Source of the DNA: Halichondria panicea
Lineage: Eukaryota > Porifera > Demospongiae > Suberitida > Halichondriidae
Reading direction: 5' to 3'
Assembly: GCF_963675165.1 (NCBI RefSeq)
Contig: NC_087382.1
Span: forward strand, 1,550,001-1,614,000
DNA length: 64,000 bases
Shown here: positions 58,939 through 64,000 of the stretch, one piece after another
How the letters are laid out: each line of letters opens with the position of its first letter
Numbering within the stretch: position 1 is the first letter of the stretch
The notes under the pieces: model-generated
What the model was told of the DNA's origin: nothing
What the model saw: the letters and a program-made list of their open reading frames with translations, nothing else
Databases searched by the model: none
Made by a program: the position numbers and the translations under genes

Positions 58939-60676
58939 TCAGGTGACCTCGCTGGATTGGCCCCCACCAGCCGAGCAATGAGAATGAACATACTTCCAAT
59001 ATCCTGCCAGATCCTGGTCTCTGGAATACTCACTGAGTGAGCCACGCCTTCCCTACACGAAATACAAGTCATGTGATATCACAGCTCACCATACACTCAG
59101 AGGAGGTTTGACACGAGTACCTCGATTAGGCTAAAAAAATTGAGTTAATTAGTCACAGCAATAATGACTTTACTGTTGATTTTGCACGTGACCAATCGTA
59201 ATCGAGGTGCTCATGTCGCACCAGTACACTATACATGATATGTACATGTACATTAATATATAAAGTTATTTTAAACAGACCTTTCGAAAAGCTCTACAAA
59301 ATGCAAAATTAGACAATACTTATCAAGTTACGGGCACTCAAATGGAAGTTACCTCTCAAAACAGGCCATTTTTCGACAACAAAAAAAACACCATGGACTG
59401 TGAGATAATTATATGATTGTGCTTACTTGACGACTGTTTGGATGAGGCGGATGTAGGCACAATAAGCACCTGAGTCCGGCCAGGGGCGGATCCAGAGGTA
59501 GTTCGTTGGGTTTGTACGAACTACCCTTCCACTAAGTTGATACTTTATATTACACCTGGCTAGCTAGCTTACTGTCATGACAATAGGGTACAAAGTTCTC
59601 TCTGTATAATGTGAGGGTGGGGCTGGTACTCTCTGCATAATATGAGGGTGGGGCTGGCTATATTGACTCATCCAGCCGTGGTCGCAGTGATAATTGAGCC
59701 TGGCCACAAATCCTAACAAAAGGTCTAGATTGCAACCCTCCATTGACTCCTGGTTTAAGAAGAGTAAAGTTTCAGGTAAGGGAGAGTTCATGGCACTGCA
59801 TACTGAATGATAGACACTGTATAGATTAATTATAATTGCTATAATAATTATATTGACTAATATAATAATCTAGATGATGCGTCAAGTCTACAGCCAGTCT
59901 CCTCTTCAAGAGAACCACCAGCCACCACCGTCTCTCCTCCAGTCATCAACGTCTCTCCTCCAGCCACCACCGTCTCTCCTCCAGCCACCACCGTCTCTCC
60001 TCCAGCCACCCCTCCAGCCACCACCGTCTCTCCTCCAGTCACAACCATCTCTCCTCCAGTCACAACTATCTCTCCACTGGAACCACCAGCCACCTCCATC
60101 ACCCCTCCGTGTTCATCGAAGCAAGCAACGAGATCTTCCGCTGAGGATCAGCCAATGGACATTGGTGCTCTCCTGAAAGAGAAGAAAGTGCAATCACTAT
60201 CCCAGAGCATGAGAATGGCTTTGCCTTGTGTTCTTTCAGATATTATATAATTAATTTTCTGTTTTTTTGTATAATGTTTTTGTTGAAGGGGAATGTGGTT
60301 AATTAATGGGCGTGGCACGTAAAAGGGGGCGTGGTCAGCCGAAAAATTTCGGCGCTATGCGCCGAGTAACACTTCTTATTTGCGCTTCGCGCGGCCAAGA
60401 AGTAAGAACCCCCCTTTCCTAAATCCTGGATCCGCCCCTGGTCCCCCAACATCTGAACCTTGGGTGTGATCATGGACTGTTGTATGGCAGAGGGGGACGC
60501 AGGCACAGCGTGTGTGTGGGTGGGTGGGTGGGTGGAGTGTGTTAAGGTAGGGGTGGACAGTGTGTAAGGTGTGTGGAGAGTGTGGGGGTGGACAGTGTGT
60601 GTGTGTGTGTGGGGGGGTTGGAACTTACAATGATGGTCAAAGTAGAACTTGTGGAACTCCATTCCAGTGACTAGTT
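58939..60676 (-). pseudogene. CaMKII association (hub) domain pseudogene
   Basis: The exon pieces on the minus strand are TQLVTGMEFHKFYFDHH (about 60674-60617), then SMITPKVQMLGD (about 60478-60441), SGAYCAYIRLIQTVV (59480-59432), SIPETRIWQ and, in another frame, YWKYVHSHCSAGGG (59016-58939). These follow the order of the CaMKII hub domain: GMDFHKFYF, HVHVIGED, ACIAYIRL, EETRVWH, WxxVHxHCSG. No kinase domain is present. A 960-bp hAT-like element (59481-60440) splits the second piece, and one lost base shifts the frame in the last piece. Upstream the sequence switches directly to an attractin fragment at 60677. It is therefore a dead, partial duplicate. Confidence 0.75.
59481..60440. mobile_element. 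hAT-like element inserted in the CaMKII hub exon (960 bp)
   Basis: The ends are CAGGGGCGGATCCAGAGG and CCTGGATCCGCCCCTG. The flanks read, on the minus strand, GGGGGAC before and GCCGGAC after, a partly degraded target duplication of 7-8 bp. Inside are GGCGCTATGCGCC and CTTCGCGCGG hairpins shared with related elements and a 21-24-bp minisatellite at about 59920-60085. The minisatellite (CCACCACCGTCTCTCCTCCA) is open on the plus strand as PPPSLLQ repeats, but I see no evidence that it is a gene. Confidence 0.75.
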
Positions 60677-61505
60677 GAGTCCACCGTTGCTACGGGGAGG
60701 CGGAAACATAATAAATATATACTCCCGTAGCTATAATAATAATAATATAAGATCAGAGATGGTTGGAGGTGGTTGGTACTAACCACCCAGGGTGTCATAC
60801 AGGATTTTGAAGAAGTACAGGGGGGAAATAAGAAAAGTAACTAGAAAATTTTGCTAAAAAAAAGGTCAACTGTTATTTCAATACCCTGTTAGTATGTAAA
60901 ATTGCCAGCTAGGACTCCAACTAGTACCTAAATGCAAATTTTAGGGGGTGGGAATGTCCCTCCCTGTATGACACCCTGCCACCTCTACACATATGCAAAA
61001 ATAACCTTCTAGGCCTAGCCTGTCTACTATAATAATAGGCATACATTTGTGTTAATTGAGATTAAGGATTGAAAAATAGCCACCACTTTGAAAATTCTGG
61101 GCACATCATGATCTGTTACTATTAAATACGTACATTGGGTTGCCGTAGTAGCCGTGATTACAGGTTTGACAAGTATCCCCAGTGTATGGCTCCTGGCACA
61201 CACACAGAGTGGAGTTACCAGGTCCCCCTCTAGCCGTACCGTGACCATTGCAGACTAGGACCGCTGTACAGGGACGGGGGAACAAGCATACAAACGTTAA
61301 CATTTTATTAATAATATCAATGATATTCACATTCGTGAGGCATGAATACAGATAGCTACTTACCAGGTACGTATGTATATACATGTAAGATCTAGGAACT
61401 CCACTAAGAGGTGATCACACACACTTGTATAGGTACGTACCTCCAGTTAGTGTTTTAGTAGCAAGCAATGAAGACAAAGCCGTCCACATCAACAGACAGG
61501 TCCGG
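60677..61505 (-). pseudogene. Duplicated 5' end of the attractin gene (exons 1-3 start)
   Basis: This holds the attractin exon 2 again (61263-61134), with all 130 bp and the flanking intron bases matching 51467-51338. It also has part of exon 1 (61505-61441, the signal peptide half; one T for C change and one substitution seen) and the first bases of exon 3 (60690-60677). The duplicate ends abruptly on one side in the CaMKII fragment and on the other in a Ginger1-type transposon. It cannot make attractin. Confidence 0.85.
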
Positions 61506-61512
61506 TGTCATA

Positions 61513-61675
61513 GGAATGAATGACTCCCCTAAATAATGACTCCCGGTCACTCCTACCTAGGCACCAGTGACTCCCGGTCACTCACGCCTAGGAATAAATG
61601 ACTCCCCCGGTCACTGACTCCTAGTCACGAATGACTCCCCCCTGGAAAAAATGACTCCCCCGAAATTTATATATG
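61513..61675. repeat. Subterminal ATGACTCCCC repeats
   Basis: At least six degenerate copies of AATGACTCCC(C) mixed with GGTCACT and CCTAGG, in the terminal region of the Ginger1-type element. Confidence 0.75.
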
Positions 61676-62091
61676 AACACTGATCCATAGAGCTAAAGAG
61701 ACTTCAGGGGCTATACTAAGTACATGCATCCTCAAAACCTGTCACAGTGTGACTATACAATCAAGCTCAAGACTGTTATCAGGACTGCATGCATGCTATC
61801 TGTGAGAGACCTGTTTAATACATAGTATGACTATAATTACAGCTGTTCCTTATATACTGTAAACTGGTTCAGTTTAGCTATTAGTACCTATAGTACTTAT
61901 ACTACATTGTACACTCTGTTCACATTTTCACACGTCTCACGGTCACTGTAAAGCAAAACTTATAATACAACAACATCCATCAAAATAACAAATAGATCTA
62001 CAGTGCATGAAAAACAAACAAAACAACAGTGCAAATTAACAGTGTATAAACAAAAACAGCTAGTGGAAGATAACGAAATGCTAAAAAAATT

Positions 62092-63986
62092 CTATCTAGA
62101 TCTACAAGTAGGACAAAACCAATCTCCAAGTGGAGATACTTTAATACGAACACATTTATAATGATACCACACAGTACATGTGTCGCACTGGACCATTTCA
62201 TCATAACAGTCAGGGCGGAGACAAGGGCAGTATATCGTAATTACTATGCTGGAAAATCTTTCTGGTCTCTTGCGGCTACTAACATCTTTTGACTTTGGAA
62301 ATCTTCTGAGTTTCTCATTTTCAAAGCAACGCACAAGATGTGGCCTCATTTTGTCTTCATTTAGGGTGATGGTATCCAGATTGTCTCCTTGCAATGCGTG
62401 GTATGCAGCGGCAATTGCAAACAAACCACAGTTGTTACTGCCACTGCTCTGCTGTTGAATGGAGGCCACAGATAGTAACAGCCCATTGTGCGCTATTAAA
62501 GGCTTATACATCTGTGCGATTTGCAGCTCAGCACTTGGCTCCAGGTCTTTCCCATATTGGAAGCAGCTATCAAAGAGGAAAAGTTCCCCCTTGATCTTGA
62601 TGAGTGCTGTCGCAATCCAGTGATGCCTCTCTGTTACAAAGAATATCTGCACGGCTGTATAGGATATATATGATATAATTATTATACGGTACGGCCAAGG
62701 ATGAGGATGAGGTATAATTATACCAATACTATAATAATACTACTATTAATTTAAGTAGAAATTATACCTGTGGCTTCACTACTAGTGACTGCAGGAAAGG
62801 ACATCTTCTGAACCAGAAGAGTAGAATAACAGCCTTCAATATTTGGAAATTGCATTCGCATCAGTTTGTGCGCAGCATACATATGACGGTCAGAAAGCAT
62901 CCCGCTCTCAGCAAGAACTACATCCTTGTCTCCCGTCCTCAGGTCCAAATCCTTCACCCAGTAACTTGAATTCTGTCGAATGTGCACACAATAATAATCA
63001 TAATGAACGGTTTATAGTGTGCATGCACATAATTATTAATAATAATTGTAATTAACGATAGCTCCTGTTAACAAGTATATAACTATATACCTTTCTTGTT
63101 ACAGATTGAGTAGTCCTTTGCTTCTTCAAAGGTGGCTCCATAGAGGATGCAGTCTTAACCTGAGAGAAGGGGGCGTCTCGCTTGCGAGAGGAGTGAGCAT
63201 CTGGCTTGTGAGAGGAGGGGACGTCTGGCTTGTGAGAGGAGGGAGCGGCTGGCTTGTGAGAGGAGGGGACGTCTGGCTTGTGAGAGGAGGGAGCGGCTGG
63301 CTTGTGAGAGGAGGGGACGTCTGGCTTGTGAGAGGAGGGGACGTCTGGCTTGTGAGAGGAGGGAGCGGCTGGCTTGTGAGAGGAGGGGACGTCTGGCTTG
63401 TGAGAGGAGGGAGCGGCTGGCTTGTGAGAGGAGGGGACGTCTGGCTTGTGAGAGGAGGGAGCGGCTGGCTTGTGAGAGGAGGGGGCGTCTGGCTTGTGAG
63501 AAGAGGGAAAATCACAATTTTTTTCCCACAGCTTCTAAAAATGGAGTGTATAATTATAAAGAAACATGAAACATTAAATTAATATCGTAAAGAGAAATGT
63601 AATGTAATTATAATTAGCTTCAAAATCTAGAGACACATGCATTATACCTTGCTTGGGTCTTTCATAGGAGTACTCGTCAAAGAAGGGTTAAACTGATCGA
63701 GAGATTCATCGTGATGGTTGTCTGATAATTCGGAAGGATCCGAGAGAGAACTATGTTGATCAAAGATAGGTTTTTCGGAGTCTGAGCCATGGTAATGCTT
63801 TAACCGCTGTTGGTTAACAGCCTTTTTTAAGGTCTTTCCAGTCTTAGGGTTGGCAATCTTAAAGACTCCCTTGTCCAAGCACTCCACCACCGTGTATGGG
63901 CCTAACCACCGAGGCTTCAGCTTGTCTCCCTTCTTACATTCCCTGGCTGAATTCCTCAGCCAGACCAAAGTCCCAGTCTTAAACAC
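62092..63986 (-). CDS. Ginger1-type transposase, C-terminal half: GPY/F, linker, Ulp1 protease, PHD finger
   Basis: Four exons join with GT-AG borders and consistent phases: 63986-63648, 63534-63091, 62972-62768 and 62654-62092 (516 codons plus stop). Exon a: integrase C-terminal GPY/F region (WLRNSARECKKGDKLKPRWL, GPYTVVECLDKGVFKIANPK then TGKTLKK). Exon b: SSHKPDVP/SSHKPAAP repeats and a basic KKQR. Exon c: SDRHMYAAHKLMRMQFPNIE, typical of the segment before such proteases. Exon d: Ulp1-type cysteine protease with His (ERHHWIATAL), Asp (LFLFDSCF) and Cys (SNNCGLFAIAAA), then a PHD-like zinc finger (YDEMVQCDTCTVWYHYKCV ... WFCPTC). The catalytic DDE core and zinc-binding N-terminus must lie beyond 64000. 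No frameshift is seen, so this copy may be recent. Confidence 0.8.
63188..63500. repeat. Coding minisatellite, 24-bp unit
   Basis: About 13 units of GGAGGGGACGTCTGGCTTGT / GGAGGGAGCGGCTGGCTTGT (plus GAGA). On the minus strand in the transposase frame they read SSHKPDVP and SSHKPAAP alternately. The unit length is a multiple of three, so copy number can change without breaking the frame. Confidence 0.9.
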
Positions 63987-64000
63987 CTATATAATTAGAA

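Follow-up and report, generated by a model that had tools for sequence, protein, structure and literature searches.

A Ginger1-type DNA transposon encoding a Ulp1-like protease and a PHD finger in the genome of the sponge Halichondria panicea

The window analysed in this study is a 64,000-nucleotide stretch of the Halichondria panicea genome (NC_087382.1, forward strand, positions 1,550,001 to 1,614,000), whose last 2,495 bp (61506-64000, minus strand) form the 3' part of a transposable element of 4,446 bp. The whole element (G000:C6:1611506-1615951, corresponding to L009:506-4951; minus strand) is bordered by CCGG on both sides. The copy of this target-site duplication on the 3' side is read in the window sequence (61502-61505, unstranded), while its partner lies outside the window, on the other side of the element (L009:4952-4955), and the remaining portion of the element occupies window-equivalent positions 64001-65951. 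As described in an earlier, sequence-only reading of this DNA, TGTCAT directly follows CCGG (from 61506); at the second end, beyond the window and in the opposite orientation, CCGG is followed by TGTCAG. Both termini therefore carry TGTCA, and their first 24 bp agree at 23 positions, the inverted ends being imperfect overall (73% identity over 104 aligned columns). The 10-kb locus contains ten copies of the motif TGACTCCC (0.34 expected by chance). All of them point inward from positions no more than 155 bp away from an element end, and six belong to the 3' terminal region (61506-61660, minus strand).

The element resides in a local duplication, next to host sequence with a laminin/attractin-type EGF match (61106-61414, minus strand). 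On its left side the flank is 99% identical to C6:1646701-1647310, and on its right side 100% identical to C6:1647307-1647395, the two matches sharing four overlapping bases. When the joined flanks were aligned to this paralogue, it was found to contain a single CCGG and no element, i.e. an empty site, which bears out the earlier observation that the homology of a duplicated attractin fragment breaks at CCGG. Two less similar paralogues (L039 and L040) also lack the element, and their letters at the site differ. Elsewhere in the window, a Pro/Ser/Thr-rich repeat with PPATTVSPP-like units (59880-60230) looks, by eye, to be coding on the plus strand.

Nine exons separated by eight GT-AG introns, with splicing predicted from sequence, yield a protein of 874 aa whose frame contains no stop. 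The four exons visible in the window had been described as open and correctly phased, which they are (minus strand). Exon 6 (63986-63648) encodes the GPY/F (SH3-like) module, with LGPYTVV (G387), and the stretch preceding the repeat, exon 7 (63534-63091) a linker of 14 SSHKP-type eight-residue units, and exon 8 (62972-62768) the first part of a Ulp1-like domain. Exon 9 (62654-62092) comprises the rest of this protease, with H699, D716, Q755 and C763, and a PHD finger (residues 830-871), and terminates with TAG. The SSHKP linker, which had been singled out as an addition to the known layout, was confirmed and proved to be a minisatellite: the number of units in its 24-bp coding tandem repeat (window 63161-63507; L009:2161-2507) varies among closely related copies of the element.

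Extension beyond position 64000, proposed earlier as the way to find the catalytic core and the other end, brought both to light: the core is of the D,D(35)E type and is accompanied by a zinc finger, and the second inverted end is bordered by CCGG. In the predicted protein, the Pfam Integrase_H2C2 profile is matched at 5.7e-20 (zinc ligands H76, H83, C113 and C116) and rve at 1.3e-9 (D146, D205 and E241, 35 residues separating D205 from E241), and within residues 1-50 YP, F and YY stand at places that might correspond to a YPYY motif. The SH3_Tf2-1 profile stays below its cut-off (21.6 vs 30 bits); LGPYTVV is nevertheless aligned with the C-terminal module of the Ty3 integrase, the best solved match (residues 31-422, E 3.5e-30). 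The element thus appears to encode one apparently intact transposase, with the predicted order H2C2 zinc finger, D,D(35)E core, GPY/F module, SSHKP linker, Ulp1-like cysteine protease and PHD finger.

Profile searches, as had been suggested, placed the integrase zinc-binding, rve and PHD (4.6e-7) domains above cut-off, but the protease piece remained below it for Peptidase_C48 (12.3 vs 20.7 bits, E 0.15), and this family was not listed for the whole protein; two relatives in the same genome come closer (L059, 19.9 bits; L060, 19.7 bits). A profile built from seven sequences of this genome (alignment A1, which omits L057 and L058) matches a Ulp1-like SUMO protease (6dg4) at 2.5e-6. The catalytic residues of Ulp1 (Peptidase C48) follow the order His-Asp-Gln-Cys, and H, D, Q and C are invariant across the seven profile sequences. 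It is on these two grounds that we assign the protease, whose His, Asp and Cys had already been noted in place, with the PHD finger behind them. Even families with as little as 28% identity preserve the protease residues and most of the zinc ligands, with the exception of L058 (which lacks the Asp stretch), L057 (with a stop in the PHD) and L054 (without an aligned first PHD cysteine).

With its own sequence as the query, the PHD finger finds YNG2, ING1-5 and TAF3 as the best solved matches, and with the seven-sequence profile PHF8, PHF2 and Spp1; most of these PHD proteins read H3K4me3. Y829, M841 and W850 stand at the Y, M and W places of the ING1 alignment and may form an aromatic cage for H3K4me3. 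The tryptophan is kept in eight of nine aligned sequences (L057 has the stop), and the methionine in seven, being replaced by tryptophan in L058 and L060. For exon 9, a structure model made from one sequence gave no usable fold (mean pLDDT 33.4, every residue below 50).

A search of the genome assembly (131 Mb, 39 contigs) provided 21 regions for examination, i.e. the window copy and 20 others. Both ends are present in 16 of them, and 15 of these 16 have identical 4-bp flanks; at least one end was not recognised in L029, L032, L033, L035 and L036. The sole both-ended region without identical flanks, L023, is adjoined at a distance of 16 bp by a shorter element sharing its ends (C2:3344666-3346243). 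The 15 duplications are CCGG (8), ACGG (3), CCGT (2), CCCA (1) and TCGG (1). Since the preceding base is A in 11 of the 15 insertions and the following base T in nine, the preferred target resembles ACCGGT. Targeting of CpG islands was rejected, because the CpG observed/expected ratio near the 15 insertions is not raised (0.51 vs 0.55 at 221 control sites in the window); G+C content is 0.434 near the insertions and 0.405 at the control sites.

Over the aligned element, the window copy differs from nine other both-ended copies (L017-L025) by only 0-5 substitutions, and from L026 and L027 by 2 and 12, respectively. With the exons as predicted, the reading frame is intact in 13 of the 21 copies (the window copy, L017-L027 and L032) and broken in eight, although automatic alignment may cause some of the breaks in the older ones. 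The near identity of the copies, together with the number of intact frames, indicates that the family has moved very recently. Six in-frame base pairs in exon 9 are unique to the window copy (absent from all 20 others). Between element positions 1001 and 1500, a block that includes intron 3, eight older copies (L028-L034 and L036) are only 0-0.8% diverged from the window copy, while in the other blocks they mostly diverge more; recombination or conversion is a possible cause.

A pattern derived from the element termini has 68 matches in the genome, compared with none for a reversed control. Pairs of ends 1.1-1.6 kb apart were found at C12:3836691-3838205, C9:4083091-4084649, C1:14675963-14677451, C15:1714343-1715472 and C2:3344704-3346240, the last within the interval of the short neighbour of L023. 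These five pairs look like short derivatives, and at least three of them (those on C9, C15 and C2) retain a decayed Ulp1-PHD piece. A perfect match to the terminal pattern is also located upstream of a Ulp1-PHD relative of 50% identity (G000:C4:6379185-6379209), which may reflect shared ends or a nested insertion.

According to the founding description by Bao, Kapitonov and Jurka (2010; PMC2836005), Ginger1 elements have inverted ends of 40-270 bp beginning with TGTNR, duplicate CCGG or CCGT/ACGG, and encode proteins with a YPYY motif (upstream of the zinc finger), H2C2, DDE and GPY/F parts and a C-terminal OTU or Ulp1 domain. The element described here has TGTNR ends, 4-bp duplications of the CCGG or CCGT/ACGG type, the H2C2, DDE and GPY/F parts and a C-terminal Ulp1 with PHD. 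The CCGG duplication, the empty site and the 874-aa frame uphold the earlier classification as a Ginger1-type transposon with an apparently intact protein, ordered GPY/F, Ulp1, PHD. We therefore consider that it is an autonomous cut-and-paste Ginger1 DNA transposon which has moved recently, with a probability of roughly 0.93.

The suggestion that a PHD finger behind Ulp1 is an addition to the Ginger1 layout did not hold: Table 1 and the Fig. 1 legend of PMC2836005 already give "Ulp1, PHD" for Ginger1-9_HM of Hydra (3,758 bp, TIR of 120 bp, more than 22 copies), and a new layout is thereby ruled out. The sponge element shares with this entry the C-terminal Ulp1 and PHD, and differs from it in its eight predicted introns (vs two), its length (4,446 vs 3,758 bp) and its imperfect ends of about 100 bp (vs a TIR of 120 bp). 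The SSHKP tandem repeat is present here; the Hydra element was compared by its published description alone, and such a repeat may exist there too. Since the combination of Ulp1 and PHD has been described before, the present transposon exemplifies a known kind of element well and does not represent a new one. Its distinctive traits are the eight predicted introns (intron counts in Table 1 of PMC2836005 range from 0 to 4), the variable 24-bp SSHKP repeat, the many Ulp1-PHD relatives within one genome and a strong excess of synonymous changes in Ulp1.

The Ulp1-PHD part of the protein, used as a query, has at least 161 matches in the genome. Leaving the window family aside, 89 of the matches listed extend to query position 225 or further, and these were counted. 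Among those with 42-61% identity, 51 of 66 are preceded on the same strand, at no more than 4 kb, by one of the 97 DDE matches listed; several Ginger1-like lineages of this genome therefore carry Ulp1-PHD. For those with 28-40% identity the corresponding count of Ginger-like DDE matches, within the same distance, strand and set of 97, is provisionally 0 of 23, and a related Ulp1-PHD module may thus belong to another kind of element. These more distant coding loci include L059 with L061 (G000:C2:4763200-4765426), L056 and L060, several with long open frames; the 507 aa encoded upstream (C2:4763200-4764721) matched no family above the cut-off. A Mutator origin of the distant loci was rejected, as all 31 MULE matches lie away from the five loci checked by eye (L056-L060); the nearest, at C11:3521230, is about 4.2 kb off and on the other strand.

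Selection was assessed in seven stretches of the coding sequence by comparing eight older copies (L028-L034 and L036; L035 was omitted as too broken), with uncorrected p values and with unique changes counted, which removes shared ancestry only in part. The Ulp1 domain shows the strongest synonymous excess of all seven (23 synonymous vs 15 nonsynonymous among the unique changes, compared with an expected synonymous share of about 21%; p 1.7e-7). An excess is also seen in GPY/F (p 0.0039), is marginal in PHD (p 0.049) and reaches p 0.06 in the SSHKP repeat. No excess was detected in the zinc finger (p 0.41) or DDE (p 0.79), both with few changes, or in the stretch preceding the repeat (p 0.53, pooled pN/pS 3.07).

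These results bear on the question of whether the Ulp1-PHD tail is a passenger module that plays no role in movement. The module is present at 23 loci with no nearby Ginger-like DDE among the matches listed, and so may be transferable; selection on PHD is marginal; and Ginger1-1_BF is reported to have no C-terminal domain, although its authors were unsure whether that copy is deleted (PMC2836005). A mere passenger would, however, hardly be expected to display the synonymous excess of Ulp1, or to retain protease residues and most zinc ligands down to 28% identity (L054, L057 and L058 excepted), and we judge this explanation unlikely.

Far less probable is that the sequence is a fragment of a Gypsy LTR retrotransposon, or a gene captured from one. 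The integrase and GPY/F are Gypsy-like, and H2C2, DDE and the C-terminal module align with the Ty3/Gypsy integrase (7q5b_A); moreover, integrases in frames of 1,452-1,962 aa, presumably Gypsy pol, exist elsewhere in the genome. In contrast to Ty3/Gypsy, the element carries Ulp1 and PHD; neither its predicted protein nor the ten other frames searched match reverse transcriptase, and it has no LTR. A search for direct repeats of at least 40 nt detected only the 24-bp array and, at one end, a short repeat, and no direct terminal repeat of this length. A 4,446-bp element with a second inverted end followed by CCGG is not what a Gypsy fragment predicts. For the DDE domain, the matches listed show 56-67% identity in the main hits of other Ulp1-PHD elements of this genome (75-76% across the first 52 residues for one group), vs 34-44% in the integrases with long frames. 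Reverse transcriptase with LTRs, or a missing second end, had been named beforehand as grounds for abandoning the Ginger1 assignment; the sequence beyond 64000 presented neither, and a Gypsy retrotransposon was rejected. A domesticated host gene of Ginger1 descent, for which GIN1 and Imagin are given as precedents (PMC12863088) and with which the intact frame and the synonymous excess in Ulp1 would agree, is equally improbable, since the element exists in many near-identical copies that are dispersed and have both ends and target duplications, as would not be seen for a host gene at a single locus.

A PHD finger also occurs in the RAG recombinase, where it reads H3K4me3, but there it is on a separate subunit (RAG2), the transposase is of another family and Ulp1 is absent. 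In both cases, a DNA recombinase works with a PHD finger (PMC4411706).

For the Ginger1 transposon, the following mode of action may be proposed. The transposase would bind the inverted ends, where the ten inward-pointing TGACTCCC motifs are likely to be its sites. It would join these ends to targets resembling ACCGGT, cut with a stagger of 4 bp, in keeping with the 4-bp duplications observed; the joining chemistry is taken from known retroviral and Ty3 integrases. Because of its catalytic residues and synonymous excess, the Ulp1 domain is proposed to cleave SUMO or a related modifier off the transposase or host factors during transposition, and the PHD finger, which resembles those of ING and TAF3, might dock the complex on histone H3 tails. 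Chromatin binding or removal of SUMO-like modifiers had been envisaged in the sequence-only reading, and both are inferred here too. A functional role of the protease in movement seems to us somewhat more probable than not, while docking of the PHD on histones is put forward tentatively, at somewhat less than even odds. It is conceivable, but doubtful, that an H3-tail-reading PHD and a SUMO-type protease together steer integration to marked chromatin and remove SUMO locally for insertion or repair, and that this module has radiated through several Ginger1 lineages of this genome and in elements of another kind.

A role of the protease in transposition was already suggested in the Discussion of the founding paper, where the function of the protease and the manner of Ginger1 excision are left as open questions (PMC2836005). 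With its many near-identical, apparently intact copies, the family described here offers a convenient system in which to ask if Ulp1 and PHD domains assist the movement of a DNA transposon.
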